From the NCBI GenBank assembly GCA_018340375.1, contig JAFFJZ010000010.1:12772001-12836000 (forward strand): DNA of 64,000 nt, read 5' to 3'. Shown here in pieces: positions 4,933 to 63,759 of this stretch. Source of the stretch: Gonatopus flavifemur. Taxonomy: Eukaryota; Arthropoda; Insecta; Hymenoptera; Dryinidae. Made by a program: the position numbers and the translations under genes. Position 1 is the first letter of the stretch, and the number at the start of each line of letters is the position of its first letter. A model generated the notes under the pieces. It did not search any database and had not been told where the DNA came from. It was given only the letters and a program-made list of their open reading frames with translations.

Positions 4933-5084
4933 CCCAGATAGCAATTTAACCTTGCTGCAACGTTGTCAGGCAAGCTTGTGACAAGGTTGATATAAGCCTC
5001 CTAGTTGACACACGAGAAGGGTACAAGCTTACAAAACCCTTGCAACAAGGCTGTAACAACCTTGCACTGACAAGGTTGTCAATA

Positions 5085-5578
5085 CCCTGGTGAAAATGAA
5101 GCGTATACACAAAGCGAGAAGGAAACGTAAACGAAGCGAAAAACGTTTCAACTCCCTCTTTCCGGAGCGTATGATACCCGCTCGCTGGAAAGTCATCACA
5201 TCATACGTTCTGTATACGTTTCATAAACTTCCAATCCCGTTTCGCATACGCTTCACGTAACGTAATAGTAAGTTATATGAAGCGTATGCGAGTCATACCT
5301 ATTCTGACTTCAAATGACATCTTTCAGCAACTGAATTTAACGACGATCTATGGATAAGACCCTACCATAGTGGAAGTCACCGGTTCGATTCTCACCACAG
5401 GGTTCAATTTTTTTGTCTAGATTTCTTGAATTTTTCCCGCTTTCTTTGTTTCAATTCCCGTTTCACATACTCTTTGTATCCTTTCCATTCAAGCTTCGTA
5501 TACTTTCCATTAACGTTTCTGTTACCCTCCAGCATACGCTTCGTTTACTCTTTCTTCTCGCTCCCGTTTTCACCAGGG
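5085..5578. mobile_element. CCCTGGTGAAAA element, GAAGCG-word core, nested
   Basis: The ends CCCTGGTGAAAATGAAGCG and its inverse ...TTTTCACCAGGG are flanked by a TA duplication (5083-5084, 5579-5580). The arms repeat degenerate GAAGCG/CGCTTC and GTATACG/CGTATAC words. The middle holds a tRNA-like stretch (5340-5405). The copy at 11473-11987 is the same 0.5-kb subfamily in reverse orientation. Confidence 0.85.
5340..5405 (+). other. tRNA-like segment inside the nested CCCTGGT element
   Basis: Contains GGTTCGATTCT at 5382-5392, a good match to the Pol III B box (GGTTCGANTCC), preceded by ACCCTACCATAGTGG. The same stretch recurs on the minus strand at 11650-11725, where an A-box-like TGGCTCAGCAG also survives. 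It cannot fold into a complete tRNA here. Confidence 0.45.
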
Positions 5579-5644
5579 TAACAAGCCAAAAACAATCGAA
5601 TGACAAGTGTGACAGGGTCATGACAAGCCTACATGTTATCTGGG

Positions 5645-5756
5645 ACATAGCACACAATATCTCAATAATGTCTCGAAATATCACTAGAACATAACCGAGA
5701 CATTTGAAACATTGCAGCAATATTTCGAGATATTACTGAGACATCGTGTGCTATGT
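5645..5756. mobile_element. Hairpin element ACATAGCACAC...GTGTGCTATGT
   Basis: Near-palindromic 112 bp with core words GAGATATT/AATATCTC and GAGACAT. The ends resemble the CCCAGATAGCAC family without the outer CCC. It directly abuts the element ending at 5644. Confidence 0.7.
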
Positions 5757-5758
5757 GG

Positions 5759-5983
5759 ATCAGGAGGGAACAACGGTGAGAGGGATAGAAATTATTGAAA
5801 CGGAAACTCACACCCTCAAGACCAACTTTCTTATGGCTCCAACCAACGGAAGTTCTGTTTCCAGAAGTATAATTCACTTATTACTTTTAGAATTGGGCTC
5901 TCATTGATTGGACCCATCAGAAAGTGGATCTTGGGGGTGTGAGTTTCCGTTTCGTTCCTACCACCGCTATGTTCCCTCCTGAT
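5759..5983. mobile_element. Palindromic element ATCAGGAGGGAAC
   Basis: The left arm (ATCAGGAGGGAACA, then GAAACGGAAACTCACACCC) is mirrored at the right end (GGGTGTGAGTTTCCGTTTC, then GTTCCCTCCTGAT). The loop is about 70 bp. I found no convincing target-site duplication. Confidence 0.75.
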
Positions 5984-6228
5984 ACTCCTTACAAGCGTCT
6001 TTTTAATATAAAAAATGTGAGCGAAGCGGGCATAACTTGAAACAATCAATGAAGAACAGAGCGAGCGTCCCCAAATTTAAGAGGAGGCTCTCATCAAGCG
6101 AATTCCGGAATAAGGTGATTTTCTCGAATTTTTTTTCTTCCAAGAAAGAAGTAAATTAAGAACTCGAGTTATTTCCCCGTTGAAAAATCTCATAGATGTC
6201 TAAATATCGCTATAGCATCCCATATAAG

Positions 6229-6431
6229 GTAAATGTCCCCTTCACCGACACTGTACTTAATTACGTTTAATTATAAATTCATTACTATTTCGTCCACTCC
6301 CTCATCACTCATATTTGGAAGCAAGAAATTTCTTTCTCATTTCTAAACATCCATTACAAGAACGTTTAGAAAATAATATGAAATTATCATTGATCGTAAT
6401 TAAGTACAGTGTCGTTGAAGGGTACATTTAC
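6229..6431. mobile_element. Nested hairpin GTAAATGTCCCCTT
   Basis: Arms of about 40 bp (GTAAATGTCCCCTTCACCG... and its inverse ending GGTACATTTAC) surround an AT-rich loop. It sits inside the TTAA-flanked element. Confidence 0.65.
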
Positions 6432-7176: not shown

Positions 7177-7574
7177 CCCATACAGCAAAAATTGTGCTTT
7201 GTCTGAAAGATTTCTTATGCAACAGATCTCACTGTCTTGAAGGGGATACTAGCGGCGCGGTAGCAGCCAAATCGTTTATGACAAACTACGGGCAAACGCT
7301 TCAATTTTATCAGGATATCCTTCTGTACAGCACTTTTACTCGGATCAGAGAAGTGCTGTACAGAGCGATATTTTGATAAAATTGAATCGTTCGCCCGTAG
7401 TTTGTCACAAAACGATTCGGCTGCTGTCACGCCGCTAGTGTCACTTCAAGATGTCTTCGTTGAAGAGATCTAAAGATATCTTTTTTTAGATTTCTCAAAC
7501 GAAGAGATCTTAAGGACAGTGAAAACTGTTGCATAAGAAATCTTTTAGACAAAGCCAAATTTTTGCTGTATGGG
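7177..7574. mobile_element. CCC...GGG element CCCATACAGCAAAA
   Basis: 398 bp with ends CCCATACAGCAAAAATTGTG and its inverse, and a 2-bp duplication GA (7175-7176, 7575-7576). Arms of about 180 bp include GACAAACTACGGGC. A short hairpin of AGAGATCTTAA words (about 7458-7512) interrupts the right arm. The end is close to the CCCAGAYAGCAC type. Confidence 0.85.
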
Positions 7575-7586
7575 GAGCCTCATTTG

Positions 7587-8223: not shown

Positions 8224-8239
8224 TGTACCCCGTTAAAAA

Positions 8240-9165: not shown

Positions 9166-9345
9166 CCCAGGCAGCATAATAGTTCATGATGAGTTAATAA
9201 TGAATACCTCTGGAACTATAAGAATTCATGAAGAATTCTTCATGAATACATCAGAAACTGTCGTGCTGTCTGCAAAATCTGGAAATAGAACAGCCCATGT
9301 GAAATTCTTCACATTCTCCACGTGGCCAGTCCGACTCTGCCTGGG
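9166..9345. mobile_element. CCC...GGG element with GAATTC/ATGAA core
   Basis: The ends CCCAGGCAGC and GACTCTGCCTGGG are flanked by a TA duplication (9164-9165, 9346-9347). The 180-bp core repeats TTCATGA, GAATTC and ATGAA words. The core vocabulary resembles the element at 31004-31275. Confidence 0.8.
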
Positions 9346-9465: not shown

Positions 9466-10033
9466 CCCTGGTAAAAAAAATCGGATAGATAACCGGAAAA
9501 AAACTGGATAATGATCCAGATAAAACCCGAATGGATAATCCGAATCAAATCCGGGTGGAACTTTCCGGGACCCCATTCGGGTGTATCCGGGTTCCAAACT
9601 GAAACCTTTCAGTATCCTAAATGAAATCCAAACGAAAAAGTAAATGAGTTTTATCCAAATTTTATGTGGGATTCCGAAAAATATCTAGTATTGAAATCCG
9701 GATAGGATCCGGATGAAGAATCACCGCAAAACAGTGGCGTAGCGTGGCCAAATGGTACCAGGGGCGGACGCGATAGCGGAAGCCCCCCTCGCCTGGCAGG
9801 TCGTCTTCTTTTGTAAAAAAACAAAAAAACATAGAAGAAACTGTAATCCAGTACAATTTGAACGCGAACCAAAATTTGGCACCCGGGGCGGTCCGCCCCC
9901 ACCGCCCCCCCCCCCCCCTTGCTACGCCACTGCCGCAAAATCCGTATCGGAACCCGTGGATACACCCGGATGTAGTCCCGGAAAGTCCTATCCGGGTTTG
10001 AATCTAATTCCTATTCGGTTTTTTTTACCAGGG
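9466..10033. mobile_element. CCCTGGTAAAA element, CCGGAT-word core
   Basis: The ends CCCTGGTAAAAAAAATCGGAT and TTTTTTACCAGGG are flanked by a TT duplication (9464-9465, 10034-10035). The core is a degenerate run of CCGGATA/ATCCGGGT/AATCCGAAT words. It is interrupted by the hAT element 9732-9932. The closest relative is 55596-56064. Confidence 0.85.
9732..9932. mobile_element. hAT-type element CAGTGGCGTAGC, nested
   Basis: The ends CAGTGGCGTAGCGTGG and TTGCTACGCCACTG are flanked by a perfect 8-bp duplication CCGCAAAA (9724-9731, 9933-9940). It carries a C-rich tract (about 9898-9918) near the right end. It has cut the CCGGAT-word element in two. Confidence 0.9.
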
Positions 10034-10135: not shown

Positions 10136-10276
10136 CCCTGGTGAAAATGAAGCGCATAGAGCGACCTGGAAACGTAACCCAGCAGTCATCCAAACCCCAT
10201 TTGAGAGGAAATTGAAACATTTTCACGGTTTATTTGTTCCAATTCCTGCTCCCTTGAGTTTCGATTTTCATCAGGG
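10136..10276. mobile_element. Short CCCTGGTGAAAATGAAGCG element
   Basis: 141 bp with left end CCCTGGTGAAAATGAAGCG and a decayed right end ATTTTCATCAGGG. It is an internally deleted member of the GAAGCG subfamily. The flanking dinucleotides are GA and GT, so no exact duplication remains. Confidence 0.7.
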
Positions 10277-10340
10277 GTGGAGTACCAAAACGGCTCTCTA
10301 TGCAATCGTTTTTAACCCGGATACACGGAAAAAATAAAAC

Positions 10341-10495
10341 GGTAAACACCCGTTGGACCGAAAGCCCGTTAGGCCGAGAGACCGTTGAATCGAAATAACG
10401 TATAGTGACATTTCGGATTATTGTCATTCGGTCAAATAAATTTCGGTCCAAAGGTGTTTCGGCCTAACGGGCTTTCGGTCCAACGGGTGTTTACC
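10341..10495. mobile_element. Palindrome built of CCGTT/TCGGTC words
   Basis: 155 bp, ends GGTAAACACCCGTTGGACC and its inverse. Inside, variants of CGTTGGACCGAAA, CCGTTAGGCCGAG and CCGTTGAATCGAAA follow one another at roughly 15-bp spacing, then reappear inverted. No target duplication was recognised. Confidence 0.8.
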
Positions 10496-10880
10496 AATAA
10501 AACACTACTGGTTACTGCGAATGACAGCAATCGGTTGAAAAACAAATGAAGGCACGCTTGGATAATGAGGATTAGCGCGATCACATTGATGGATATTTTA
10601 ATGAAATTCGTCAATGCTGACTGGACAGTAATGAAGACTGGGAAACGCAGTACTGCATCGAATGAATTTGAGTTTCAATGTTTTTTTGTGATTCACAGTA
10701 ACCATTGCTGTTTTCTTTTTTCCGTGTACTTGCTACTACCTTTAGTGTTAATATAAACCAGGAAAGAAAGATGAGAACTTTTACTATTGTATGTAAATGC
10801 CTTCGACACCTTTTGAAATCTGGGTTTTCAACTTCGATGAAAGTCGCACTCTCCTTGTTGAAAATACCAAGCAGATCCTA

Positions 10881-11129
10881 CACCGAGGAAAAAGAAGTTG
10901 TAAAATTTACATCTTACAAAGTCAACATTTGTACGATTTCAAAAATAGTTGGAGCGATCACAATTCTAGTTTATTTTACAACAGCGAATGAGAGATATAT
11001 TACAGCTGATGTGCATTTTACATTCCTCGCTGTGAAATCAACTAAAATCGTAGTAGCTCGAACTATTTTTTAAAATCGTCCAAATCTTCACTTCACGAGG
11101 TGTAAATTTTACAATTTTTTTTCTCGGTG
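10881..11129. mobile_element. CACCGAGGAAAAAG element with TA duplication
   Basis: The ends CACCGAGGAAAAAGAAGTTG and TTTTTTTTCTCGGTG are flanked by TA on both sides (10879-10880, 11130-11131). Arms of about 85 bp share GTAAAATTTACA with its inverse. A reading frame here (10797-10991) spells FNFDESRTLL, but it lies largely in the element arm and I treat it as non-coding. Confidence 0.75.
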
Positions 11130-11213
11130 TAGCAGTTACTGTGACAAAAAAACAACAGAACCGGACAGATCCGGATTTGCCTGGCAAGGCAGCAAGGCTC
11201 TTTCCCAGATAGA

Positions 11214-11445
11214 AGGGCATGCTCTCAATATTCTGTAACATAACGTGCCGTAAATATACCATCATGAACTCAGCTTGCGATGATTCATAAGATGTAAACA
11301 TTATATCTTTATCATGGCGCCATCACCTCGTTTTTCCAACAATAACAATGCTTTATGCGGAAACACCTTGGAACCATGATGCGATCATTTCTTGGCGTAC
11401 ATGTTACCATTATGATGGCATTATTGAGACATTTTTCTATCTGGG
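11214..11445. mobile_element. CCCAGATAGAAG...CTATCTGGG element
   Basis: The ends CCCAGATAGAA and TTTCTATCTGGG match each other. The core carries ATGATG/CATCAT and AATACC/GGTATT words. The flanking dinucleotides are TT and TC, so the duplication is not exact. Confidence 0.65.
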
Positions 11446-11472
11446 TCATCTAACCCTTTGGACCCTGTCTAC

Positions 11473-11987
11473 TGCTGGTGAAAATGAAAGCGGGAAGGAA
11501 GAGTCAACGAAGCGTTGTGCTAGAGCGTAACAGAAACATTGATGAAAAGTATACGGTGCTCGAATGAAAGGAATGCAAAGAGTATGTGAAGCGAGAATTG
11601 AAACAAAGGAAGGGTATGAATTTCAAAAAACCTGATTATGAAAATTTAACTCTATGAGGAAAATTGAACCGGTGACTTTCACCATGGCAGATAAGGGTTT
11701 CATCTGCTGAGCCATGGATCATCGCTTGGTATCGACCGCTTGAAGATATTAGTTGAAATCAGAATGATATGATTCACACACGCTTGTTGTACCTCAACTA
11801 TTGCGTCACATGCAGAAGCGTGTGTGAAACGGGATTAAAAGCTTATTATGAAGCGTTTATGAAATGTATGATTTCATCACTTTACAGCAAGTGGGCATCA
11901 CACGCTTCAGGAAGAGGGAATTGAAACATTTTTCTCTTCGTATGGGTTTCCTTCGCGCTTTGTGTATACGCTTCATTTTCACCAGGG
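11473..11987. mobile_element. CCTGGTGAAAATG element, GAAGCG core, reverse copy
   Basis: 515 bp; the right end CATTTTCACCAGGG is intact and the left reads TGCTGGTGAAAATG. The sequence matches the reverse complement of 5085-5578 over its arms. It carries the tRNA-like stretch on the minus strand (11650-11725). Confidence 0.8.
11650..11725 (-). other. tRNA-like segment, minus strand
   Basis: On the minus strand it reads ATGGCTCAGCAGATG, resembling a Pol III A box, then about 45 bp later CCGGTTCAATTTT, a weak B box. It matches the plus-strand stretch at 5340-5405. I read it as a tRNA-derived core of the CCCTGGTG element, not a working tRNA gene. Confidence 0.5.
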
Positions 11988-12039: not shown

Positions 12040-12246
12040 CTCTATTAAAAATGTCTGACAGAACTGGACACTATTTTGCGCCGGATCTATGCGGTTCTGT
12101 CTAACATTGTTTAGTTTGTACATCAGTTTAAAAACTCATAGAACTGTCAGACAAAGCCAAACAGAATCTGTCGGATCTGGATCAGAAACCGACCAAATGC
12201 TGATAGAAAATTATCTGTTCGGTTTTGTCAGACATTTGGAATAGGG
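12040..12246. mobile_element. CCCTATT...AAATGTC element
   Basis: The ends CTCTATTAAAAATGTCTGAC and TGTCAGACATTTGGAATAGGG are flanked by a TG duplication (12038-12039, 12247-12248). The core repeats CTGACAGA/GTCTGTC and AACCGACC words. The same family recurs at 29883-30130. Confidence 0.8.
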
Positions 12247-15500: not shown

Positions 15501-18500
15501 GTATTAGCGAAAAATTAGGTATATTTCCCTTATTCAACCAATCGATTATTTATTGCTAAAATTAGTTGCAAAACGCTATTTCTCCAATTATCATTGTTCA
15601 TGATAATTTCATTGCAGAACAATTTTTTTCAATCTCAGGTGAAAATATTTTCTCTTATGATTTTTCCCGTACAATCGATTGGCACCCTTCGTTTTTTGAA
15701 ATTCGAAAGTTTCAACTAAGTTGTTTACACAATTAGAGCATTAAACAATCGTATCATCCAATAAAAACAACACGTATTTCTTATTTTTCGCCAATCCAAT
15801 CGATGATGTTGTTGATTTGAACCTATTAACAATAGGGATCCTCAAGTGAGGGATAAGACAACGGGCCACCATCAATGGGATAACCAAAAAATACATAATA
15901 CTCAATTTGTGCGTTATCTAAATAATGAAACTGAGTAATCTATTGAAAATATATCATAAATCCCATTGCTCTGCTATACTCTAAATGAATAATTCATTTT
16001 TATTCATTGAATGACACGCAAATTAACCCCTATCCCATTAACCCTCAACCACGCACCTTCGAAAAAATCCCTAATCCACGCACCCGGGTCTTTTGAACCC
16101 GGCTCATCTTATTTTGGCTGTATTTTCTTCAAATATTATCCTTTTGAGATGATTTTTTTTCCAATCGATTCGTCGTAATTTCAAGAATAGTAATCAGCAT
16201 TGTGAAAGAAGATTTTCTTGGGATTTCTGTGAGTTATGTAGGAAAGAAGGAACATAAATCTGAAAAAAACAGTGAGAAAAACGATTTTTTTCAAAAAATC
16301 ATATCTATCCCGCACAAAGACGTAGAGACAAAAATAACCACCGTTTTGTAATCAGAAAAAGTTCAACTTCCAGGATAAAAATAGTTCCTAATGATAGCTA
16401 GGAAAAAACACAATTATTTACAAGAGTGAAGTTTGGGTATTTTGAAGAATCCACAATTAGTGAATTAAAGATATTTATCGAAATATTAGAGGGGAAAAAT
16501 ATAGAAACCGATAAGAATAATGTTCGAAACACTTTTATCCTTCAAGACTATCCTTTGTTGATTATGAATACCCTCAGTGCATATAAGTACATATACACTC
16601 AAGAAAAAATCATTTAAACTGAATATCGATTTGTTCTTTATCCAAAAAATATTCATTGCTATCAGAAACATTTTCCAGTTTTCCGCCAAAAAAAGTTACA
16701 CAACCACGCACATCGGGTCCAAAGGACCCGAGCTGGGTTTCAAATACATGCTACTCGAAAACTAAGTGGCGGATCCCGGATTTACAAAAATCATTCAAAG
16801 CAGGAAGGTTCTAAGTTGCTTACATTACAATACCAGCCCTTGGCTGTGCATTGCAACAGAATGAGAAGTAAAAGAAAAAATTGCTCAGCTCCAAAGGACC
16901 CAGGTGCGTGGTTGAGGGTTAATGGCGCCGAGTCTGAAGCTCGGTGTCTTATCCCTCACTTGAGGATCCGTAATTAACAATAGTGTGTTTTTGAAACAAG
17001 ACGCTTTTTCTCTTATGATCATTGCTTGTCATAATTTTATTGCCAAACAATTTTTTTTTTTAAATAAAGTGAATATATTTCTTCCTGTGGTTTTTCCCGT
17101 AAAATCGATTGGCATCCCGCTTTTTTCGATTTTTTTCACTAATTTGATTAAATAATTTTAGCAGTAAACAATTGAATCATCAAACAGAAAATCCAGTGTA
17201 TCTTACGGCATGCTTTTGCTAATGCGACCCTGTAAAAAAATTTCCAAAATGAATTGTATTTTCGCATCGTAAATCCGCAATTGATTACGATTCACTGGAA
17301 TTGTATGCAGAATATATCGATATATGAGTGTATATGGGGCATTCGACATTCCATGACAAATCTAACACTTTGAGAAATTTTGATTTTTCATTTCCTCAAT
17401 TTTTTGACATTTTTTAGTACCCATCAAAGCACCTTGCCTGGTGAATTTCGAGATTTTCTTTATGAACCGTCCAAAAGATATCGATTTTTTACAAAAATCG
17501 CGTTTTTTCAGTTATTTACTTATGACTTCCCCAAAAATGGTCCGAATTTAAACTGTTTGATCTCAAAATTTTTGTTTTTTTGTGTACTTCCAAAAAAAAA
17601 TATGAGAAAAATTTTCAACGCGTTCTAACACGCGATTTTCAATTTTCAAAATTTAAGTCTTATTTTTCAAACTATATGTACACTTCAATTTTTTGTATGA
17701 CTTTTGATGGTTGGCCTTTATCGATTTCACAAATTCTGAGCTCGAATAGATCGTGGCATTATGTTATCACTATTTTTTTTCATTTTTTAAAAATTAAAGA
17801 AAATTTTCCCCCGTTTTCCGTAGTCTTGAAATTACTTTCCTGCATTGTGTAACCTTTTTTGTCATTTTGAATCTGTTCTCCTATAATTATAGTATCGAAG
17901 AGATATCAGCATACCATCTGAATAAACATTCTGTCTGTAAGATTTCTTTGAAACAAAATTTGAAAATTTCGTAAATATCGCTATCTTGCCGGATATCTTT
18001 CATTTCTATCATCCGATTGTCATGAAATTTTCACTACAGTTTTATGCAGTGCCGATAATGATCCCATACCCGACTGGAAATTTACCCCATGGACCTGATC
18101 AGGTAAACCTTGATCCAGCTCAGGTCCTGATGAGGCAACCTTATCAGGACCTGACAAGTCATGTCACGCTTCACTATTATAAGGACCTCATCAGGAGAGA
18201 CTAATCGGGCTTTCATGAGGAATTCCATACAGAAACCTCCAAAATAACTCGAAATTAGGATATGAACAGGAAATTCAAAGCAAAATCAAAAGATTAAAGA
18301 GACATCAAACAGATTGAACATCAGTGAATTGATTCGATAAAATTTGGTTTCAATACGTTAGGGATAGATTGAACAAAATAGTCAACAGTTTTGAGAAGTA
18401 GGTAATGTATTTGGAATGAACAGATTGAATTTAAAAATAGGCACACTCAGCTAGAAACGTGACATTTTGTCTTCTCAGGCCCTGCTTTGGGCCAACTTGG

Positions 18501-20878
18501 CGCGATCTGGGTCAAGTTAGGGCCTTTGATGGTCCAATTTGGAGGAAGGGCCATTTTTAGCAAGGCAGTTGAGAATCCTTCGAGATTTACCTTCTAATTT
18601 GAGGAAAATGTGTTGAATCAAAGAGTGTACAGTCTACAATCAAGACTGTACATTGTTTTATTCAGTTTATTAAACTATCTTCATGATCTGAGGATGAACT
18701 AACGAGGTCCCAATGAGGATACACCGAGGAAAACCCACTTCAGCCTTTTAGGATAATCTGAGGAAATCCTGACTAGGACCAAATGAGCTTATTTATACGT
18801 GGGGCATCCACACCTAATCCTGATCAGGACTGTAGCAGGTGTGCCTCATTTCGGATGACCTTGTTAGGTCCTTATCATATGTTGGGTCAACCCGATGACA
18901 ATTTCCAGTCGGGTACAAGTTTTCAATCTGAGTCTGACAGAAAAACGGGTGAGGAAAAGGAAACATCTTACCGGGAATTGTGATTTTGTGACAAAGCGAG
19001 TCTTCGCTTTCTGTTATTCGATTAAAATGAAATTTATACTACGATTCTTTTATGGTTCCATGTAAGTTCTTTCGTTCTCGAGAAGAGAATCCATTGAATC
19101 TGACAAAGGAAATTCCATGGGATTTGGTCAGAATATTGTACAAGATTCAATGGGATTTGTTGAAAATCAATGAGATTTGGCAAGAATCTATGGATTTTAT
19201 AACCAGGGTTTAGCAATCTGCATTTGACGATATTTTTGTCCAACACAAATGAGATAGCCATGTGCCAATTGGCAAAGTTGTTTTCTTTTCAAAATAAGAC
19301 AATTATTTTATTTCCTTTCTTATTTTTATGTCACTTTTTTCTGACAACTTGTCACTCTTCTCACTGTTTTTGGTATGCCGAACCAGTACCATGTCTGATG
19401 TTCTGTGTTGTTTGGTATTTGTATCAGGGAGAAACTCGTAGAACCTGATAAGATTTCATTAAAACGTTGTCCGGTGTTCAATAGGTTTATCACTGCATTG
19501 TAAAAGTTTTCTACTGGAAACTTCCAGTACTTCACTGCAAGTTATTAACCAGTACATTTCCTGGAATATCTCTTCACATTTGCTAGAATTTTACTGCAAA
19601 AGTTGGGATTGTGCAGATTGAAATCCGTAAAATTTCAGTGGGTGTACTGGGAAATGAATTTACTGAAATTTTCCACTACCAAGGCGCAGATTTGGTGAAA
19701 TTGAATAGCTGATATTAGCAGGGAAGGAATAATCAGAATTTGTATCAACTTGGAAGACGTTTTATTAGTGTTTTGAAGTACACGTAGTAATTTTTTCGGG
19801 TCGTTTCCGCTGCAAATAGTGGAATTAAAAGCTACCGTTCATGGACGGCCGCCATCCGAGTTTGCTGCTGATGGGAAATCTGGAAGTCATTTTTATTTGA
19901 AATCATGACAATTTTTTTTCACGTCAGCAACATATTCTCTGAGAATATGAACTAAACTCTCAACACAAAAATTGAAAATTGTACGTTTTTGAGGTGTTCT
20001 AACAAAATGTCATGTTTTTATACCATGTATTTCACCTTTATTTGCGTTTAAAAACAAGCTTTAAATAATAATATCATTCCAGAGTTGAGTTCATATAGAT
20101 TGTAATTGAATAAAGAATATTCACACAAATTTTCAGAAGAATTGAACAATAACTTTTCGAGCTAGAATTCCCACCAGTTGAAAAAAAGTCGTTTCGAGAC
20201 GAACGCATTTGAAAAAGAGTACCGAAAACGATAAATTCAGGGCACTAATAAATGATATGAACTGCTCACCGATTAATCAGCTATTCCAGCACCATATTAT
20301 ATAGCAACCTTTTTTTTCATTCAAGCGCATCATTTCGGGCTTGCATCTCCTTGCCGAGTTACTTCGGTCTCGAACGCCAACGGGCGTTCACTTTAGTACT
20401 CATAACATCGGAACGGATCGGCATTTTGTTTTGAAACTTGCGCAACATATTCTTGCATAGTTTCACGAACAATTTTTGAAATGAGAAAAAAAGTCAATTA
20501 AACGCTAACTATGGTAACTGTTTTTTTTACGTGTGGCAACAAAAGTTATTGGTATAGTAGCTAAAATTTAGCTGTTATAACAATATTTTTGTCTATCGAA
20601 ATATCAAATGCGCGAATTAGCTACGACAGCAACTTCATTAGGACTTCCAAATGATTTATGAATTTTCATAAAATAATAAATTTGTTTCAGGGGGAATCGA
20701 GGCCGGCCTGTACGGGACAGTATGGATTCAAACGGCCGACAAACCACGACTGACAAGTAAAGATCCAAAACCAGATTTCATTTTGAAACGAGTTGTGGAT
20801 CTCATGAATGTATTGAATCGTGATCCAGGGATGCCAGAACTTGAAGATTGTTCGTCAAACTCCTCCGATGGCAGTTGA
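12583..20878 (+). CDS. NANP: N-acylneuraminate-9-phosphatase-like HAD hydrolase, 5' exon missing
   Basis: Two coding exons are supported: 12583-13066, preceded by acceptor TAG and followed by GTATGG, and 20691-20878, after TTTGTTTCAG and ending at TGA 20876-20878. The join is phase 1 and reads ILG-GIEAGLYGTVW, which restores a family motif. Together they code for 223 residues. HAD motif II is LITNGPS (residues 94-100 of the fragment), the motif III lysine is in EKPDSRIF (K129), and motif IV is GDKLETD (153-159). The family dephosphorylates N-acylneuraminate 9-phosphate, although insects may use it on other sugar phosphates. Motif I (DxDxT) and roughly 30 N-terminal residues must lie in an upstream exon. 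I did not find that exon between 3263 and 12582. The 7.6-kb intron is filled with transposons. Confidence 0.9.
13131..14820. mobile_element. CAGGGTGTCTAC element, TTCCCGG-word ends (1.7 kb)
   Basis: The ends CAGGGTGTCTAC and GTAGACACCCTG are flanked by CAAAA on both sides (13126-13130, 14821-14825). Subterminal tracts repeat AATTCCCGGCTAATTCCCG-type words on both strands. The middle is AT-rich, non-coding, and holds a smaller palindrome at 13580-13723. It occupies the NANP intron. The related element is 40762-42257. Confidence 0.8.
13580..13723. repeat. Nested palindrome GGCAGCCCGGGAATAC
   Basis: The arm GGCAGCCCGGGAATACTTTTG is mirrored by ACGAAAGTATTACCGGGCTGCC around an AT-rich loop. It sits inside the CAGGGTGTCTAC element. 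Confidence 0.65.
14872..15172. repeat. Tract of AGATCTA/GGATCT words
   Basis: Repeats AAGTGGATCTAATTAGATC, TTTGGATCTC, TTAGATCTAAAT and AGATCCACGTAGATCTGA. The outer parts (AAATAATTTACATCC... and ...GATTTGTTTTTTCCCGG) suggest a decayed inverted-repeat element, but the ends are not clear. Confidence 0.5.
15836..16972. mobile_element. MULE-like element GGATCCTCAAGTGAGGGATAAG
   Basis: Terminal repeats of about 24 bp (GGATCCTCAAGTGAGGGATA and its inverse ending 16969) are flanked by the 11-bp direct repeat ATTAACAATAG (15825-15835, 16973-16983). A duplication of this length fits Mutator-like elements. Most of the interior is a second, nested element (16042-16918). It carries no transposase. Confidence 0.7.
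16042..16918. mobile_element. piggyBac-like non-autonomous element, nested
   Basis: The ends CCCTCAACCACGCAC and GTGCGTGGTTGAGGG sit exactly between TTAA sites (16038-16041, 16919-16922). CCC ends at TTAA are typical of piggyBac. Subterminal copies of CCACGCACCCGGGTC and ACGCACATCGGGTCCAAAGG add internal repeats. There is no open frame of transposase size. Confidence 0.8.
17216..18068. other. AT-rich intron DNA
   Basis: Contains GGGGCATTCGACATTCCATGAC near 17336 and many homopolymer-rich short frames, which suggests an old element remnant. No paired end was found and no coding exon is supported. Confidence 0.35.
18069..18913. mobile_element. CCC...GGG element with GATCAGGTCC core
   Basis: The ends CCCGACTGGAAATT and AATTTCCAGTCGGG are flanked by TA (18067-18068, 18914-18915). 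The outer 150 bp on each side repeat CCTGATCAGG, AGGTCCTGATGAGG and similar words in both orientations. The centre is AT-rich with another inserted-looking stretch (TTGGGCCAACTTGGC and related). Confidence 0.8.
18914..20690. other. Rest of the NANP intron
   Basis: No gene. Repeated CCAGTAC/GTACTGG and GAAATTTTACTG words at 19515-19680 and AATCTATGG/CCATTGAATC words at 19070-19200 look like decayed word-core elements without clear ends. The branch/acceptor region TTTGTTTCAG at 20681-20690 precedes the last exon. Confidence 0.4.
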
Positions 20879-25066: not shown

Positions 25067-26358
25067 CACTGGTAAAAGAATTTCTCTGAATTTCTCTGAA
25101 ATCGCTCCGAATTTCTTTATGAGAGATACTATATGTATTTTGGGACATGTTTCAGAGAGATTCAGAGTAATTTGAGAGCAATTCAGAGGAAGTTACAGAC
25201 TTGTCAGATGGTGATATATCTTAAAACTCTTGAACTTTCTTTGAATCTCTCGGAATTTTTCTGATCAAGATTTAGAAATTTTCAGTCATCTTTCTAAATC
25301 CCTCTGAATTCCTTCATTTATTTGAAATTCAAACCTTCCTCTGAATTTGTTAAAATCTTTCTGAATTCCTGTATATTTGTCTGAATCTCTTTGAATCCCT
25401 CTGAATTTGATTCATCCAAGTTCGAAGTTTTGTTTGAATTGGTTCGAATCTCTCTGAATTTCTCTGAATCCCTCAAATGTTGCTGAAGTTTTAATCGTTT
25501 GTTGAAACAAATTGGTAATTGAATAACGCAATACTCAGCCGTTGAAGTTTCCGGTTCCAATGAGTTCATTCGAGAAGACAAATATCGATGATTTCTCATA
25601 TTTTGTGAGTTCGATTTCTCTTCTCGTTTATATAAACGATTCGAATTTCCACAACATTCCCCCAGAATTTTATCTATTCAATTTCAAAGCTTTCTCGGAG
25701 TTCGTTTGAATCTCTCTGAATCCCTCAAAATTTTATTTATCCGATTTAAAAGGTTCCTCTGAATTTGTCCAAATCTCTCTAAATTCCTGTATATTTGTCT
25801 GAATCTCTTTGAATCCCTCAGCAATTTATTTATTCAGGTTCAAACCTCTCTCTGAATTCTTCTGGATCTCCCCGAATCAACCCGAATTCCTTCAAATTCT
25901 CTTGAATAATTCAACGCACGGTGTATCTCAATTTACCTATTCTCGAATCTCTCTGAAAGTCCCCGAATGCCTCTGGAATCTTCAACCAAAAATTTTTCAC
26001 AATTTATTCCTCTCTAAATGTTCCTGAATTCTTCTGAAGTTATTTGAAACCCCCGAAATGCCTCTACAATCATGGACAAAAAATTCCATTCAATCTATTT
26101 CTCTGTGAATTTTTTTGAATTGTTGTCAATGTCTCTGAATTCCTCCGAACAGTTCAATGCTCAGGTTTCCGTAATTTACCTATCTCAAAATCTCTATTAT
26201 GAAACTTCTTGAATGCCTCCGAAATTTTGAACCAATAATTTCATTGAATTTATTTTTCTCTGAATTTCTCTGAATTCTTCTGAAACATTAAACACACAAC
26301 TTTTTCCAATCCATGAGCCTCTGAATTCCTTTGAAACGTGGAATTTTTTTTACCAGGG
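25067..26358. mobile_element. CCCTGGTAAAA-type element with CTCTGAAT-word core (1.3 kb)
   Basis: The ends CACTGGTAAAAG and TTTTTTTTACCAGGG are flanked by AG (25065-25066, 26359-26360). Almost the whole body is a degenerate tandem of CTCTGAATTTCTCTGAAT-like words, first as its complement (TTCAGAGA) and then directly, over more than 1 kb. Frames read through it are shadows of the repeat. Confidence 0.8.
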
Positions 26359-30130: not shown

Positions 30131-30170
30131 TTATTTATCAAGTTTCCGTAAAGTTTCTGGGAATTTGCTA

Positions 30171-41757: not shown

Positions 41758-41887
41758 CCCAGGTAGAAATATTCTATTAAATCCCATTACAAATGGTAAA
41801 ATTTCTGATTAAATATCATTGAATTCCATCGAAACCTATTCATTTTCTCATTCGTCAATGAGATTTTATAGACTATTTATAACAGGG
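41758..41887. mobile_element. CCCAGGTAGAAAT...TAACAGGG element
   Basis: 130 bp with ends CCCAGGTAG and TTATAACAGGG, flanked by CC (41756-41757, 41888-41889). It matches the inverse of 54340-54459 along its length (for example AATGAGATTTTATAGA, and ATTGAATTCCATCGAAACCT). Confidence 0.75.
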
Positions 41888-54339: not shown

Positions 54340-54459
54340 CCCTGTTACAAATAATCCATAAAATCTCATTGACGAATGGAAAAATTAATAGGTTTCAATG
54401 AAATTCAATCAGAAGTTTCACCATTCGTAATAGGATTCAATAGAACATTTTCACCTGGG
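54340..54459. mobile_element. CCCTGTTAC...TCACCTGGG element
   Basis: 120 bp flanked by TT (54338-54339, 54460-54461). It is an inverted copy of the family at 41758-41887. It lies only 6 bp from the next element. Confidence 0.8.
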
Positions 54460-54465: not shown

Positions 54466-55071
54466 ACCGAAGAGAACATGAAGCTTCAGCGAACGTTCAG
54501 ATCAGATGTGTATAGATCGGGCCGAAGGTTCATTAGAGCTAACTTTTATATTCACAAACGTTTGACAAAGGTTCTACGAACGTTGAAATGTCCGCCTCGA
54601 AATACGTCCAGGAAACGTAGATGAAACGTTCGCTGAAGGTTCATTGAAGGTTTGACGAAGCTTCGCAACAATATCTATACTTATATTAATTTTGATCAAT
54701 TTATATGAAAAATAAATTAATCAATAAACACAAATTATTATAAATTAATCGAAGTATAGATATTTTTGTAAAGCTTCGTCAAACCTTCGATGAACCTTCA
54801 GCGAACGTTCCATCTATGTTTCCTGAACGTATTTCGAGGCGGACATTCCAACGTTCGTAGAACCTTTGTCAAACGTTTGTGAATCTAAAAGTTAGCTCTA
54901 CCCACATAGCACTGAAAGTTCTCTAAACGTTGTCAGAACCTTTAGAGAACTTTAAACGTTTTAGAAACGTTCTCAGAATGTTCTCAAAACTTTCATGCTA
55001 CGTGGGTAATGAACCTTCGGCCCGATCTATACAGATCTGAACATTCGCTGAAGCTTCATGTTCTCTTCGGG
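54466..55071. mobile_element. CCCGAAGAGAAC family copy carrying a nested element
   Basis: The ends ACCGAAGAGAACATGAAGC and GCTTCATGTTCTCTTCGGG with AACGTTC/GAAGGTTC words in long arms and an AT-rich loop (about 54670-54770). Removing the 118 bp of the nested element and its duplicated TA leaves 488 bp, compared with 503 bp in the other three copies. Confidence 0.85.
54901..55016. mobile_element. CCCACATAGCACTG element, nested, with empty-site proof
   Basis: 116 bp; the ends CCCACATAGCACTGAAAG and CTTTCATGCTACGTGGG are flanked by TA (54899-54900, 55017-55018). The paralogs at 60552-60570 and 63230-63248 read GTTAGCTCTAATGAACC with a single TA and no insertion. The core uses AACGTTCTCAG/TCTAAACGTT words. 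Confidence 0.92.
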
Positions 55072-55595: not shown

Positions 55596-56064
55596 CCCTG
55601 GTAAAAAAACCGGATAGGAAACCGGATGAAACCCGGATGATAATCCTGATGGTAATCCGGATGATAATCCGACTCAAACCCGGATGAAATTCCCGGGATT
55701 CCATCCGGGTGTATCCGGGCGCGTATACGGGTTTTGCGGTGATCCTTTATCCGGTTCCATCTGGATCCCATCCGGGTTTTGGGACAAGATATTTTTTTGA
55801 ATCTCAAATAAAACCCGAACAAGAAGACGAATGAATTCTATCCAAATTTCGTGTAGAGTTTCGAAAAATATTCCGTATTAAAATCCGGATAGGGTCCGGA
55901 TGAAACCGGATGAAGAATCACCGCAAAAACCGTATACGCGCCCGGATACACCCGGATGGAATCCCGGAAATTTCATCCGGGTGTGAGTCGGGTTCCCATC
56001 CGGGTTTGAGCCGGGTTCCCATCCAGGTTTGAGCCGGGTTCCCATCCGGTTTTTTTTACCAGGG
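55596..56064. mobile_element. CCCTGGTAAAA element, CCGGATGA-word core
   Basis: 469 bp; the ends CCCTGGTAAAAAAACCGGAT and CCGGTTTTTTTTACCAGGG are flanked by AG (55594-55595, 56065-56066). The core is a degenerate string of ACCCGGATGA, AATCCGGATGATAATCC and GAGCCGGGTTCCCATCC words, direct then inverted. Close relative of 9466-10033. Confidence 0.88.
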
Positions 56065-57488: not shown

Positions 57489-58310
57489 GCTCTGTCAATG
57501 TTATCATATGGATATCTGAATGGTATCATTTTTCTGAGATCTCAGAAAAAAAATCCTCTTAAAGATTTCGTTGAGATAACATTCTGGCAATCTCTTATTC
57601 TCCTTAGAAATCGACGCATCTGATAACATCCTGATATCTTCATGTTAACCTTCTGCAAGGTCTATCTGACTTCTTACACATATTTCCCAGTGAACAATAT
57701 GTTATCATCCAGAGCTTTTAAGATCTCTTAAATATGTGTGAGAGGTCAGATAGACCTTTCAGAAAGTTAACAAACATAAAGATATCAGAATGTTATCAGT
57801 TGCGTTGATTTCTGAGGAAAATAAGTAGTGTTGCCGCGATATTATCGTCGATAATTGAGGAATGATCGGTTATCTCAATTCTTACACGTTCCTATGGAAT
57901 ATATAATCCACGAATCTTCGATTAGGCTCATGATGATACGGAATAATGAATGATCCCAGACTTGTACACAAAATAAACCAAGATATGCTACCATTTATCG
58001 TTACGATATATCGATAATTATCGTTACGATAGTGTAAGCATATTTTGATTTATTTTGTTTAAAAGACCAAGATGATCCATTATCCCGTTTCATTTCGTGC
58101 ACAGTCGAAGATCTACGCGTTAAAAGTTCCATGAAAACCTGTCAAAATTAAGATAATCGATTATTTCTGAATTTCGACGATAATATCGCGGCAACACTAA
58201 AAATAAGAGATTGCCAGAATGTTATCCAAACGAACTCTTTGAGAGGATTTTTTTCTGAGATCTCAGAAAAATGATACCATTCAGATATCAATATGATAAC
58301 ATTGACAGAG
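57489..58310. mobile_element. Palindrome TGTCAATGTTATCAT with nested hAT element
   Basis: TGTCAATGTTATCATATGG, then TCTGAATGGTATCATTTTTC, is mirrored by GAAAAATGATACCATTCAGA and ATATGATAACATTGACA. The inner arms share GATAACAT and GGTCTATCTGAC with their inverses. The right arm is split by 57836-58199. The central phrase CCCAGTGAACAATATG recurs inverted outside the element at 58526-58544. Confidence 0.75.
57836..58199. mobile_element. hAT-type element TAGTGTTGCCGCG
   Basis: 364 bp; the ends TAGTGTTGCCGCGATATTAT and ATAATATCGCGGCAACACTA are flanked by a perfect 8-bp duplication AAAATAAG (57828-57835, 58200-58207). The core has ATCGATAATTATCG-type words. Confidence 0.9.
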
Positions 58311-58316
58311 TTCTTT

Positions 58317-58447
58317 TCCTGGTGAAAATGAAGTGTTACACTGTAGTTACAGTGCAATGCGAGGTTCATCCGAATGTACCCGGAGTGGTGTTTCGCGCCG
58401 TGGAATGCATCGCAAATGTATTTTGTTACACTTCGTTTTTACCAGGG
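58317..58447. mobile_element. Short CCTGGTGAAAATGAAG element
   Basis: 131 bp; ends TCCTGGTGAAAATGAAGTG and ACTTCGTTTTTACCAGGG, flanked by TT (58315-58316, 58448-58449). Deleted member of the GAAGCG subfamily. Confidence 0.8.
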
Positions 58448-58870
58448 TTCACAAAACCTCTTAAAGATTTCTTCCTCTTAAGAGTGTTCACTGGGTTAGG
58501 AGATCTTCGAGAGTTCCGGATGATAACATATTGTTCACTGGGAACTAACTGCTGGAAACTACCGATTTCTACGAAACACTAAGATCATCATCGGTATAAG
58601 TGTTCGCTCGTCCCACTGCACTGACGTACTCATCCGTAGATCCTCTTAGAAAATTCCATTTTCTACGCATTTCCAAGAATTTCTACGACTGAGTGGGGAC
58701 TTCGAGAAAGCAGTATAATCCTTCTCATCGATGTAAAGTACTTATACTTGAAAAGGCGTAGTTTTTCGTAATTTTGTAGTTTTTAATTTTGGCCTAGGTT
58801 GTTGTAAAAGACAGTAATTTTCACCCATTCTTAAAATTATAACTTGAAAAGGCATAAACTGTTGTAATTA

Positions 58871-59373
58871 CCCAAAGGGAACATGAAGCTCCGACGAACG
58901 TTCAGAATAGATCATGATAGATCAGACTGAAGCTCCGTTGGAGCTCAAGTTTAGATTCGGAAACGTTCGACGAAGGTCCGATGAACGTTGAAATGTCCGC
59001 TTGAAAATAGCTTGAATGAAGGTTCATAGAACGTTTATTAAAGATTCTACGAAGATTCATTCAACCTTCAGTTTTTTATGTTTCAGACGGAATTACAATT
59101 ATAGTTAGAAATGCCCCAATCTTTCATTTTTTCGTGGAAAAATATACTTTGAAAAAAACTTTGATCGAAAAATTGCAACTCGAACGAACCTTTAGCAAAC
59201 GTTCGATGAACGTTTTATAAACGTTCATTCAAACTATTTTCCAGTGGACATTTCAACGTTCATCGGACCTTCGTCGAACGTTTACGAATCTAAACTTGAG
59301 CTCCAACAGAGCTTCAGTCTGATCTATCATGATCTATTCTGAACATTTGTCGGAGCTTCATGTTCCCTTCGGG
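58871..59373. mobile_element. CCCGAAG family, diverged 503-bp copy
   Basis: The ends CCCAAAGGGAACATGAAGC and GCTTCATGTTCCCTTCGGG; the arms have AACGTTCGACGAAGGTCC-type words. It is exactly as long (503 bp) as 60128-60630 and 62806-63308 although clearly diverged from them. The flanking dinucleotides are TA and AT, so no exact duplication. Confidence 0.8.
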
Positions 59374-59404
59374 ATTATGTATTATTGCTTTGGGCGTTGA
59401 TTTA

Positions 59405-60127: not shown

Positions 60128-60630
60128 CCCGAAGAGAACATGAAGCTTCAGCGAACGTTCAGATCAGATCTGTATAGATCGGATCGAAGGTTCATGAAAG
60201 CTAACTTTTAGATTCACAAACGTTTGACAAAGGTTCTACGGACGTTGAAATGTCCGCCTCGGAATACGTTCAGGAAACATAGATGGAACGTTCGCTGAAG
60301 GTTCATTGAAGGTTTGAGGAAGCTTCACAAAAATATCTATACTTAGATTAATTTACAATAATTTATGTTTATTAATTCATTTATTTTTCGTATAAATTGA
60401 TCAAAATTAATAGAAGTATAGATGTTTTTGTGAAGCTTCGTCAAACCTTCGATGAACCTTCAGCGAACGTTCCATCTATGTTTCCTGAACGTATTTCGAG
60501 GCGGATATTTTAACGTCCGTAGAACCTTCGTCAAACGTTTGTGAATCCAAAAGTTAGCTCTAATGAACCTTCGGCCCGATCTATACACATCTGATCTGAA
60601 CGTTCGCTGAAGCTTCATGTTCTCTTCGGG
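60128..60630. mobile_element. CCCGAAGAGAAC family, 503-bp copy
   Basis: The ends CCCGAAGAGAACATGAAGC and GCTTCATGTTCTCTTCGGG are flanked by TA (60126-60127, 60631-60632). Long arms with AACGTTC/GAACGTT and GAAGGTTC words and an AT-rich loop (about 60330-60425). It is an uninterrupted empty-site reference for the insertion at 54901. Confidence 0.9.
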
Positions 60631-62255
60631 TAAGTTATCCGATTACGTTGCATAAGACATTTTTTATGTATCTCAAAGATAACTACGGAAAAATTTTACG
60701 ATATCTCAAGATCCATTCGGATATCTTCAAGGTTGTTATCATTTCTTTCATTTTTCTGTATCGGTGGAACAACTGGCAACTCTTGCAACAGTACTGCGCC
60801 AGTAGTGTGCCATTTGGCAATTTCCACATGGGCTTCTACGCATGTTCACAGGATACTGTACTCCACCTGGATTTTTGCAATGGGGATCAAAAGTACATAA
60901 ATATTATACAAATAACATGATATTGTCATAAAGTGAAGGTTGAAAAAATAAATTCAGTATATTCAAATCCACATTTCGACGGATTTCATTTATAAAACAT
61001 ACATATATATATATACATCTCGCTAATCATATTGGATAACAATAAAATCGGAAAGATTAACGAATGGATCGTCTTAATTGAGAACATTGAAGGCAGTCGA
61101 TAATAAAACGTTTTCGTTGTAGTATAAAATAAATTGTTGATATTTCAGATTCTAATATTGCCGTTAAAATTCGAACTTTTCAGCTCATATATATCTTTAT
61201 AATATCAAATTCAATATGTTGGCAAAAATATACATCTTCATTCTGTCATAAGACATTGATCATTGTATATATGAACGTGTTTATATGTATCGATATATCT
61301 TTTATATATATGTATATATTCATGTATAACTGACATAATAGGTGGTTGCATATGTATCACTTTTTCAATGGACGTTTTTTTTTGCAATCCGTTTACAACC
61401 TGGCCTTCACTTTCTTGGATTAAAAACAACGCTCACAGCGAATGATCATCCATATGTACACAACAAATATAATTCAAGACGATATTACTCGCATTATCAT
61501 AACTTTGATCGACAAATAAAATTTCTTGGAGGAAAACTATTTAAAATACACTAGAACCTCGCGATGAAGGTTCTTCCCTTTTTTCCTCAACGCATGACAT
61601 GAACCGTTCGAATGAGAAAGAAGGAAAACTGTGTTACGGCGAGGTTGCACTGTATCATTACTGTATTGTTGTATCGAATGACAACGTGTGAAATTACGTA
61701 ATTTGAATCATGATTAAAGTAATATACGTGAAGAGATGAACATGATTTTTGTTAGTTTACACAGTACAGAAGAGTGGCACACGGAGAAAAAAGTATTGCT
61801 GGCGTAACAAGCAGGTCTGTTACTATAGCGCTTACAAAAAAAAACTAGTTGGAAGAGCAAAAAACAATAAAAAAATTTGTTGAAAGAACTAACGTCCTAG
61901 CTGCTGAAGTGAATATTTTTACAAGGACAACAAATTTCTTTGTAGGCGCTGTAGTAGCAAACCATTTTTTTTCCGTGCATGTAACATATTGTGTCTCGCG
62001 TAAAGCTGCAATTATCTTCCTTAGTTGCAAATATCAATTGAGTTCTCCCATGTGAAAAAATTTCATGCGGAAAAAACTTAAGACTGGTGTATTAGAGTCT
62101 GATTTAAATTAAAAAATTTCATATATAATCTATATATAAATAATATACTCGTTTACACATATCAAATATGAAAGACTTGTACATAAATATAAAATACACA
62201 ATTCACGCACTCAATGAAGGTATGAATTCGCAAAAAAAACATATACATATAGCTT
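60631..62255. other. AT-rich DNA with word-tract and satellite fragments
   Basis: Contains AGATATC words (60640-60740), a GCCAGTAGTG fragment related to the 38.9-kb satellite (60775-60900), TA-rich microsatellites (61003-61018, 61300-61320) and the CACGG element below. I see no gene. Confidence 0.45.
61780..61977. mobile_element. CACGGAGAAAAAA...TTTTCCGTG element
   Basis: The ends CACGGAGAAAAAAG and TTTTTTTTCCGTG are flanked by CA on both sides (61778-61779, 61978-61979). The core is non-coding, with GTAGTAGCAA and GTAACAAGCAGG words. Confidence 0.55.
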
Positions 62256-62338
62256 CCCAGACAGCACAAATGATCATTTTGAATTCACGAAAACTTCTGA
62301 AAGAACTTCTTGAACAGTCCTCGTTATGACAGTAAAAA
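62256..62338. mobile_element. Left end of a CCCAGACAGCACAAATG element
   Basis: Nearly identical to the first 83 bp of 31004-31275, then stops after GTTATGACAGTAAAAAT. The right end is absent, so it is a truncated copy. Confidence 0.75.
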
Positions 62339-62384
62339 TTCTCTAAAAACTCTATTAAATTTGGGACACTCTGCTCTAGAGCTG

Positions 62385-62604
62385 TGCGGTTAATCGATTA
62401 TTCGAATGAAACGAATAATTGTTCCCGATTAATTGATTAATCGGTTTTCCAAATAATCGATTATTCGATTAATTCTTTGATTCCGATTAATCATTATTTG
62501 ATTGATGGATAAATCAAAAACAGAATAACCATCGGAAACTGTTGATCAGTCGGTCCATCGATTAATCGGAACGCCGATCAATTAATTGATTAATCGGAAA
62601 CAAC
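62385..62604. repeat. ATTAATCGATTA-word tract
   Basis: Starts near AGCTGTGCGGTTAATCG and consists of GATTAATCG, TAATCGATTATTCG and similar self-complementary words up to ATTAATCGGAAACAACCC. Probably a word-core element with unclear ends. Confidence 0.55.
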
Positions 62605-62805
62605 CCAACAAACAAAAAGATGTCTTAAAACCATGGGAGATGTCTTGGGAGACTTTCGTGGAGATATCTTTTCTACACCTAAAAGATGTCTTACACATCA
62701 AATTCCAACATGTTTCAGATATCTCGAAAAAGTCTTGTGAAAGATCTGTTTTGGATATATGGAATACATCTTCTAGATATCTCAAGATATGCTTTTGATT
62801 CTTTT

Positions 62806-63308
62806 CCCGAAGAGAACATGAAGCTTCAGCGAACGTTCAGATCAGATGTGTATAGATCGGGCCGAAGGTTCATTAGAGCTAACTTTTAGATTCACAAACG
62901 TTTGACAAAGGTTCTACGGACGTTGAAATGTCCGCCTCGAAATACGTTCAGGAAACATAGATGGAACGTTCGCTGAAGGTGCATCGAAGGTTTGACGAAG
63001 CGTTACAAAAATATCTATACTTCGATTAATTTATAATAATTTGTGTTTATTAATTAATTTATTTTTCATATAAATTGATCAAAATTAATATAAGTATAGA
63101 TATTGTTGCGAAGCTTCGTCAAACCTTCAATGAACCTACAGCGAACGTTTCATCTACATTTCCTGGACGTATTTCGAGGCGGACATTTCAACGTTCGTAG
63201 AACCTTTGTCAAACGTTCGTGAATCTAAAAGTTAGCTCTAATGAACCTTCGGCCCGATCTATACACATCTGATCTGAACGTTCGCTGAAGCTTCATGTTC
63301 TCTTCGGG
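62806..63308. mobile_element. CCCGAAGAGAAC family, 503-bp copy
   Basis: The ends CCCGAAGAGAACATGAAGC and GCTTCATGTTCTCTTCGGG are flanked by TT (62804-62805, 63309-63310). It has the same length as 60128-60630 and 58871-59373, and it splits an AGATGTCTT-word tract. Confidence 0.9.
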
Positions 63309-63334
63309 TTAAGATACGTTTTAGATTTTCCCAA

Positions 63335-63759
63335 CCCAGACAGCACAGAAAGTTCTCTGAACGTTTTGAAAACATGCACTTGATTCTGGGTGTTTCGGTC
63401 TCCGGGAAGTAGGTTCTCTAAACATTTAGAGTACCTGCATTTTGGAGGCCCCTAAATACGTTTTCAACACATTCTTTTCATCTACTACTCGCCGTTGTTA
63501 TAATGTTTTTCCAACGTACTTCCATGAAAACTAACCTTTGAACACATGTGTGCAGTTTCGCACAACGTTATGAAAACCTTTACTGAACAGGTCCCCAGAA
63601 CGTCGCACGATGCACATGAATAGAACTAACCGGGACATTTGCACGTACCTGGGACATACATGTGACGTTCTTAGAACATCCTGAGGCGTTATTAGCACGT
63701 CCTCTGTGTAACCAAACACGTTGTCCGAACATTCAAAAGACTTCGCGGTGCTATATGGG
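63335..63759. mobile_element. CCCAGACAGCACAGAAAG element
   Basis: 425 bp; the ends CCCAGACAGCACAGAAAG and GCGGTGCTATATGGG are flanked by AA (63333-63334, 63760-63761). The core has AACGTTTTGAAAACATG and ACGTTCTTAGAAC words and is related to 54901-55016. Confidence 0.8.

Follow-up and report, generated by a model that had tools for sequence, protein, structure and literature searches.

The stretch of DNA considered here, hereafter the window, comprises 64,000 nucleotides of contig JAFFJZ010000010.1 from the dryinid hymenopteran Gonatopus flavifemur (positions 12,772,001 to 12,836,000) and corresponds to G000:C2:12772001-12836000 of the 636-Mb assembly that was searched for related copies. A neurochondrin gene lies near its start, and from position 4731 to position 63759 are found elements that begin with CCC and end with GGG, most of them miniature inverted-repeat transposable elements (MITEs), many flanked by a 2-bp duplication of no fixed sequence. 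The pattern is real, and its marks match those published for animal members of the CACTA/EnSpm superfamily.

An unbiased scan was made for exact CCC and GGG ends that lie 50-2000 bp apart and have at least 12 of 16 terminal bases complementary. It returns 49 pairs, with flank matches of 2 bp in 22, of 3 bp in 0, and of 4 bp in 2. Where the inverted repeat stops at the tip, the adjacent dinucleotides match in 20 of 35 pairs, compared to a mean of 4.4 when right flanks are shuffled among pairs, and none of 10,000 shuffles reaches 20. Pairs whose repeat extends past the tip show no clear excess (2 of 14). Dinucleotides one to eight bases further out match in 1-4 of the 35 tip-bounded pairs, those one to three bases inward match in 0-1, and a 3-bp flank match occurs in none (0/35). 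The 20 matching dinucleotides are TA (6), TT (5), GA (3), AT (3), CA (1), CC (1), and AG (1). Some ends are reused among the 35 pairs; when each end is used once and pairs are picked blind to the dinucleotide, 18 of 29 match at 2 bp (permutation mean 4.0, with 0 of 10,000 shuffles doing as well). Furthermore, CCC has the highest match rate of the 61 terminal trinucleotides that have at least 10 pairs and were treated alike, the other 60 pooled giving 474 matches in 6263 pairs. Ends of the form GTA...TAC rank second with a milder excess (12 of 57 pairs).

A sequence-only reading of the window had described short CCC...GGG elements in many subfamilies with a free 2-bp duplication, and the non-redundant count bears this out. 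Among the 22 starts that it listed, 21 have a CCC-type tip (at most one base off), an inverted-repeat end, and the dinucleotide named for them, three being weak (9166, 54340, and 54901), and start 31004 is a slip for the element at 30994-31275. Three matching pairs come in addition to that list, at 4731-4905, 10136-11987, and 57686-58495.

The length of the duplication can be read directly from empty sites. Two nested elements, 29883-30130 and 30171-30461, were removed from a query that kept one TT and one TA. All 41 places reported for this query span both junctions, 35 of them with no net gap (best 40 of 1774 candidates scored). The letters of three empty-site copies read ACGTTGTT, with one TT, and TTTGCTACGC, with one TA, and the occupied sites in the window read GCGTT[element]TTATT and TTTGCTA[element]TACGC. 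Because both insertions have uninterrupted empty sites with a single TT and a single TA, the duplication is genuine and spans 2 bp. The joined flanks of 27 window elements were also compared with fetched loci, and gave only matches to older repeats that were unreadable as clean empty sites.

Copies elsewhere in the genome repeat the pattern, and their numbers are lower bounds, with only the best candidates scored. The 30171 family has at least 40 copies (best 40 of 2214 candidates scored), and its 2-bp flanks match in 7 of 10 genome copies (AA, AT, TC, TA, CA, TA, CA). Two copies have no match, and the remaining one (C381:21428645-21428930) has a 3-bp match, atg/atg, which perhaps reflects chance or an occasional 3-bp stagger. 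An eleventh copy, recovered from shorter pieces, reads TT/TT if its left tip is taken as CTCAG and was left out of the count. The 60128 family likewise has at least 40 copies (best 40 of 2108 candidates scored), the others being 95-97% identical, and flanks match in 6 of 8 fetched hits, with misses at L002 and L007; the six include the window copy itself (in L001) and two loci, L004 and L005, that represent one duplicated site. A 60128-related element in L006 also has matching flanks, and the one in L001 (window 58871) does not. Alignments of 60128 copies, made with about 30 bases of flank on the query, mostly stop at the CCC tips or a few bases off, in agreement with ends that do not extend past the tip.

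As the sequence-only reading had stated, no transposase was found in the window: the profile of Transposase_21 (PF02992, tnp2 of CACTA/EnSpm) has no match there, and other transposase families, sought in five window frames only, gave none. The same genome has 90 matches to PF02992, 80 of them above cut-off, in open frames of up to 859 aa. Ten of the 90 were examined at 18-22 kb each, and at these loci only long terminal inverted repeats (TIRs) or near-identical 24-base tips were accepted as ends, because pairs found with a tip profile were mostly little above shuffled sequence. Two whole elements were delimited in this way. One (L031/L032) is 14,916 bp long, with 942-bp inverted repeats that are 98.8% identical, tips CCCGCGCAGGAAAAAGTAGTC and CCCGCGCAGAAAAAAGTAGTC, flanks CA/CA, and a 630-aa frame that matches PF02992 (2.7e-10) and DUF1258. 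The other (L021, C68:1873464-1886565) is 13,102 bp long, with tips CCCACGCAGAAAAAAATTGGCTGG and CCCGCGCAGAAAAAAATTGGCTGG and flanks AT/AT; it holds the best PF02992 match of the genome, and 529 bases before its right end are unread.

Short derivatives accompany these elements. The pattern CCCGCGYRGRAAAAA occurs at 249 places in the genome, compared to 0 for its reversed control. In 100 places listed, plus-then-minus pairs within 5 kb have matching dinucleotides in 8 of 10 cases (CA, GA, AT, TG, AG, TA, GG, AT) and 3-bp matches in 0, and in 8 of the 10 elements each end differs by no more than one change from the 24-base tip at the right of L021. This rate and the 7 of 10 seen in the 30171 family are far above the 1 in 16 against which the sequence-only reading had proposed to judge genomic flanks. 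Thus, L031, L021, and the CCCGCGYRGRAAAAA pairs together show that this genome holds a Transposase_21 lineage whose tips are CCC...GGG, whose 2-bp duplication is free in sequence, and which is accompanied by short derivatives.

The enzymes themselves carry the CMC signature. The motif set of EnSpm/CMC transposases is D, D, C(2)C, H(3-4)H, and E, according to the part of PMC12730594 used here. The two D residues and C(2)C align in all 10 examined loci, and H(3)H is present in all three whose frame extends there (L025, L031, and L033). At the last catalytic position L033 and all 10 homologues have E, and L025 has K where it aligns. The frames of the other seven loci stop before or within the H(3)H/E region, where stop, frameshift, and intron are not told apart.

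Published animal elements have the same marks. In the sections of PMC1636069 (2006) consulted, animal CACTA (TRC) elements start with CCC, 2-bp direct repeats flank 7 of 14 SmTRC1 copies, and the two features are proposed as a mark of the group. The TRC elements of that source (SmTRC1, Tribolium, and Aedes) resemble those of the window in core tip, direct repeats, and Transposase_21 enzyme; they are larger and come from other species, whereas the window holds hymenopteran MITEs with other subterminal sequence. Its printed tips are CCCTAGTAGCACCGAATATTTGTAAAA for Tribolium and CCCAGTCAAC for Aedes; the Tribolium tip CCCTAGTAGCACC resembles the CCCAGATAGCAC of the window, and the Aedes tip resembles CCCAGTGAAC. 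Similarly, in the relevant part of PMC4298943, the Hydra element Spongebob / EnSpm-4N1_HM (tip CCCAGCCAACATTGAC), which belongs to another host and sequence family, is placed in TRC/CACTA by its CCC tip and 2-bp duplication. When scored with a profile derived from 42 tips of the window and compared with 2849 CCC words from transposase loci, the Tribolium tip falls in the top 0.7%, the Aedes tip in the top 1.5%, and the Hydra tip in the top 3.9%. Hymenopteran CACTA MITEs are also on record, since the portion of PMC6004678 at hand describes CMC-NA MITEs in wasps and polydnaviruses that share the 2-bp duplication but have CAC...GTG rather than CCC...GGG ends; it also refers to a study of CACTA MITEs from the ant Camponotus floridanus (Jiang et al. 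2016, known by title). A search of a phage collection with one window element gave no match.

With a probability of about 0.93, therefore, the window elements are several MITE subfamilies of CACTA/EnSpm (CMC, animal branch) that are moved in trans by Transposase_21 enzymes. They are most likely new members of CACTA because the genome holds the Transposase_21 lineage and the CCC and 2-bp marks are published, a comparison made with published descriptions rather than with Dfam, Repbase, or iMITEdb. In such a scheme, full-length CACTA elements elsewhere in the genome would make the enzyme, which would recognize the CCC...GGG tips with nearby bases and excise the element. The element would then insert where the target is cut with a 2-bp stagger, whatever its sequence, and gap filling would leave the 2-bp duplication. 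Action in trans, the chemistry of the cut, and the enzyme lineage serving each subfamily are the conditional parts of this scheme; we infer the partner of each subfamily because no transposase was found within an element that has the very tips of that subfamily. The claim of the sequence-only reading that one transposition machinery is at work is consistent with the shared tip and duplication as far as the type of machinery goes, and for single subfamilies the enzyme lineage is only presumed. It is possible, though rather improbable, that in this genome a single Transposase_21 enzyme, or a handful of them, moves many MITE subfamilies whose subterminal sequences differ strongly, such that CCC with an A-rich tip is nearly enough and unrelated sequences with CCC...GGG ends become new MITEs.

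Several observations weigh against placing the window elements in CACTA. Eleven of the 29 non-redundant pairs lack matching flanks, and these include look-alike tip pairs such as 24451-24511, 24675-24890, and 58871-59373. The long transposase-bearing copy for which the sequence-only reading proposed a search exists in the form of L031 and L021 as far as CCC...GGG tips are concerned, but none with the tips of a window subfamily was found among the 10 of 90 matches examined, and both ends were not found in 8 of those 10 loci. Also, both whole elements have CCCGCGCAG/CCCACGCAG tips that score only moderately under the window profile: the left tip of L031 is equalled or exceeded by 10% of CCC words, and its right tip and the left tip of L021 by about 3%. 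In the L031 transposase, G replaces the last catalytic E of its homologues, so this copy may be dead. PF02992 has 0 matches in 14 control genomes, which is a weak control given that it is uncertain whether any should hold CACTA. Lastly, the part of PMC12730594 drawn on here gives mostly CA...TG ends and duplications of 2-5 bp for lineages of the wider clade, and CCC tips are thus better taken as an animal variant than as the rule of the clade.

The lack of a transposase tied to the window's own subfamily tips could also suit a separate, undescribed DNA-transposon superfamily that combines CCC tips with a free 2-bp duplication and is merely CACTA-like. The sequence-only reading hinted at such a place outside known superfamilies; it had compared only Tc1/mariner and ISL2EU and had overlooked CACTA/EnSpm, for which these marks are described (PMC1636069; PMC4298943, each as far as consulted). 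We consider this very unlikely: Transposase_21 elements that end in CCC...GGG and are flanked by 2-bp duplications occur in this very genome, and the tips printed for animal CACTA elements look like those of the window. Still less probable is a relative of Tc1/mariner or PHIS/ISL2EU, two groups with 2-bp duplications to which the TA or AT flanks of some copies would be suited. Tc1/mariner targets TA only, and ISL2EU is of AT type. Neither rule fits, because the dinucleotide is free: 14 of the 20 matching pairs are non-TA, duplications of TT, GA, CA, CC, AG, AC, AA, and TG are also present in the window, and TG, GG, AG, GA, and CA flank genome copies. The piggyBac elements duplicate TTAA, and CCC-like tips occur among them; a 4-bp flank match is found in only 1 of 35 tip-bounded pairs. 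Plant CACTA elements have CACTA/CACTG tips and make a 3-bp target duplication, which has no counterpart among these pairs, and the window tips are CCC or one base off, with a single CACTG (at 25067). By comparison, the features of animal CACTA (TRC) are found together here, namely TIRs starting with CCC, a free 2-bp duplication, and Transposase_21 inside CCC-tipped elements of the genome, two of them whole.

Chance matches picked by eye would be the least probable explanation of all. The ends in the sequence-only reading were indeed chosen by eye, seven misses among its 29 went unlisted, and three of its elements are weak, yet the unbiased scan with its permutation, the genome copies, and the empty sites refute this account. 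Most likely, the window elements are not a new class, as CCC tips and the 2-bp duplication were already published for animal CACTA. What appeared anomalous, a CCC tip with a free 2-bp duplication, is resolved as this published mark. For many CACTA MITE subfamilies of a hymenopteran the window offers clean examples, two of which have an empty site, and these can be of use in annotating the repeat fraction of hymenopteran-type genomes that have long open Transposase_21 frames.

The individual elements are given below with strand '.' throughout. In the first part of the window, a CCC MITE at 4731..4905 (tips CCCAGTAAGCA/CCCAGTAAACA, flanks GA/GA) is followed by one at 4933..5644 (tips CCCAGATAGCA/CCCAGATAACA, flanks AC/AC), which is interrupted by a nested CCC MITE at 5085..5578 (tip CCCTGGTGAAAA, flanks TA/TA). 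Another lies at 7177..7574 (tip CCCATACAGCAAAAA, flanks GA/GA, TIR of about 80 bp). The weak CCC element at 9166..9345 has 10/14 terminal bases complementary and flanks TA/TA; its ends, like those of 54340-54435 and 54901-55006, were sought with a dinucleotide match as a condition. The CCC MITE at 9466..10033 (tip CCCTGGTAAAAAAAA, flanks TT/TT) shares its family with 55596. A 1.85-kb CCC element at 10136..11987 (tip CCCTGGTGAAAATG, flanks GA/GA) is 75% related to 5085-5578 and encloses a CCC tip pair at 11204..11445 (CCCAGATAGAA), whose flanks TT/TC do not match and which has an 85% relative in L031 (6677-6939).

Further along are a MITE at 12040..12246 (tips CTCTATTAAAAA/CCCTATTCCAAA, flanks TG/TG), a CCC MITE at 18069..18913 (tip CCCGACTGGAAATT, flanks TA/TA), and a MITE at 25067..26358 (tips CACTGGTAAAAG/CCCTGGTAAAAA, flanks AG/AG). 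The last has CACTGG at one tip and CCCTGG at the other end, CACTG being the plant-like CACTA core. The CCC MITE at 28445..29089 (tips CCCGTGTGGAAATA/CCCGTATGGAAATA, flanks CA/CA) has a TIR of about 90 bp, and one at 29408..29559 has tips CCCTAGTGAAAA/CCCTGGTGAAAA and flanks TT/TT. The CCC element at 29705..30679 (tips CCCAGACAGCC/CCCAGACAGCA, flanks AT/AT) holds nested insertions, as does the CCC element at 29841..30653, whose own flanks do not match; without the insertions this element measures about 270 bp, and such copies are abundant in the genome. Within both lie the two elements with empty sites, a CCC MITE at 29883..30130 (tips CCCTATTAAAAA/CCCTATTCCAAA, flanks TT/TT) and a near-perfect hairpin CCC MITE at 30171..30461 (tip CCCAGATAACACAC, flanks TA/TA). 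Next come CCC MITEs at 30994..31275 (tips CCCAGACAGCACA/CCCATACAGCACA, flanks AT/AT, 13/14 terminal bases complementary) and 41758..41887 (tips CCCAGGTAGAAA/CCCTGTTATAAA, flanks CC/CC).

Toward the end of the window, the weak element at 54340..54435 (tips CCCTGTTACAAA/TCCTATTACGAA, the right tip being TCC; flanks TT/TT; 10/14 terminal bases) is 79% like 41758-41887, and a borderline CCC element at 54901..55006 (tips CCCACATAGCAC/CCCACGTAGCAT, flanks TA/TA, 10/14 terminal bases) passes the unbiased scan. A CCC MITE with a long TIR occupies 55596..56064 (tip CCCTGGTAAAAAAA, flanks AG/AG). The CCC element at 57686..58495 (tip CCCAGTGAACA, flanks TT/TT) has a rival right end at 58542 with longer identity and no flank match, and it contains a MITE at 58317..58447 (tips TCCTGGTGAAAA/CCCTGGTAAAAA, flanks TT/TT). 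The long-hairpin CCC MITE at 60128..60630 (tip CCCGAAGAGAACATGAAGC, flanks TA/TA) has a divergent relative (65%) at 58871..59373, a CCC MITE whose flanks TA/AT do not match, and a family member (94%) at 62806..63308, a CCC MITE with flanks TT/TT. The last CCC MITE, at 63335..63759, has tips CCCAGACAGCACA/CCCATATAGCACC and flanks AA/AA. Other long hairpin repeats in the window, at 27128-27387, 28007-28281, 6638-6806, 23679-23841, and 57853-58173, have no assigned CCC tips and probably represent other MITE or foldback families. Window 57821-58199 has a 98% relative in L021.

Among the remaining transposase loci, one plausible tip each lies 3' of the transposase in L023, L029 (= L037), and L033, according to a pattern chosen post hoc, and with the same pattern no end was recognized at L025, L027, or L039. 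At L035, such tips are confined to a 245-bp MITE with flanks AT/AT. A 13-kb extension for the right ends of L029/L037 and L023/L027 gave homology to the fetched ends, and no end was called. Length differences between these paired copies, as judged by eye, were unlike CCC...GGG insertions. At about 8206-8671, L023 carries some 464 bp, with the ends TGTAACC...GGTTACA, that are absent from the uninterrupted site in L027; the flanking repeat is GACT or GACTTG, and an element of another type has perhaps inserted here recently. Inside the 14.9-kb element of L031 (C3:229001-238500) and L032, a 378-aa frame with DUF4817 and a weak match to a Tc3-type helix-turn-helix is apparently a nested transposon of another superfamily.

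The neurochondrin gene occupies 1004-3262 (+) as one open frame (PF05536) and, among named proteins, is closest to those of Hymenoptera, with 83-84% identity to ants, Osmia, and Cephus. About 9 kb after it, a frame that by eye resembles a HAD phosphatase lies at 12583-13077 (+). A 977-aa record from Diachasma alloeum (P0116) joins neurochondrin and HAD domains, and is perhaps a gene-model fusion of neighbors.

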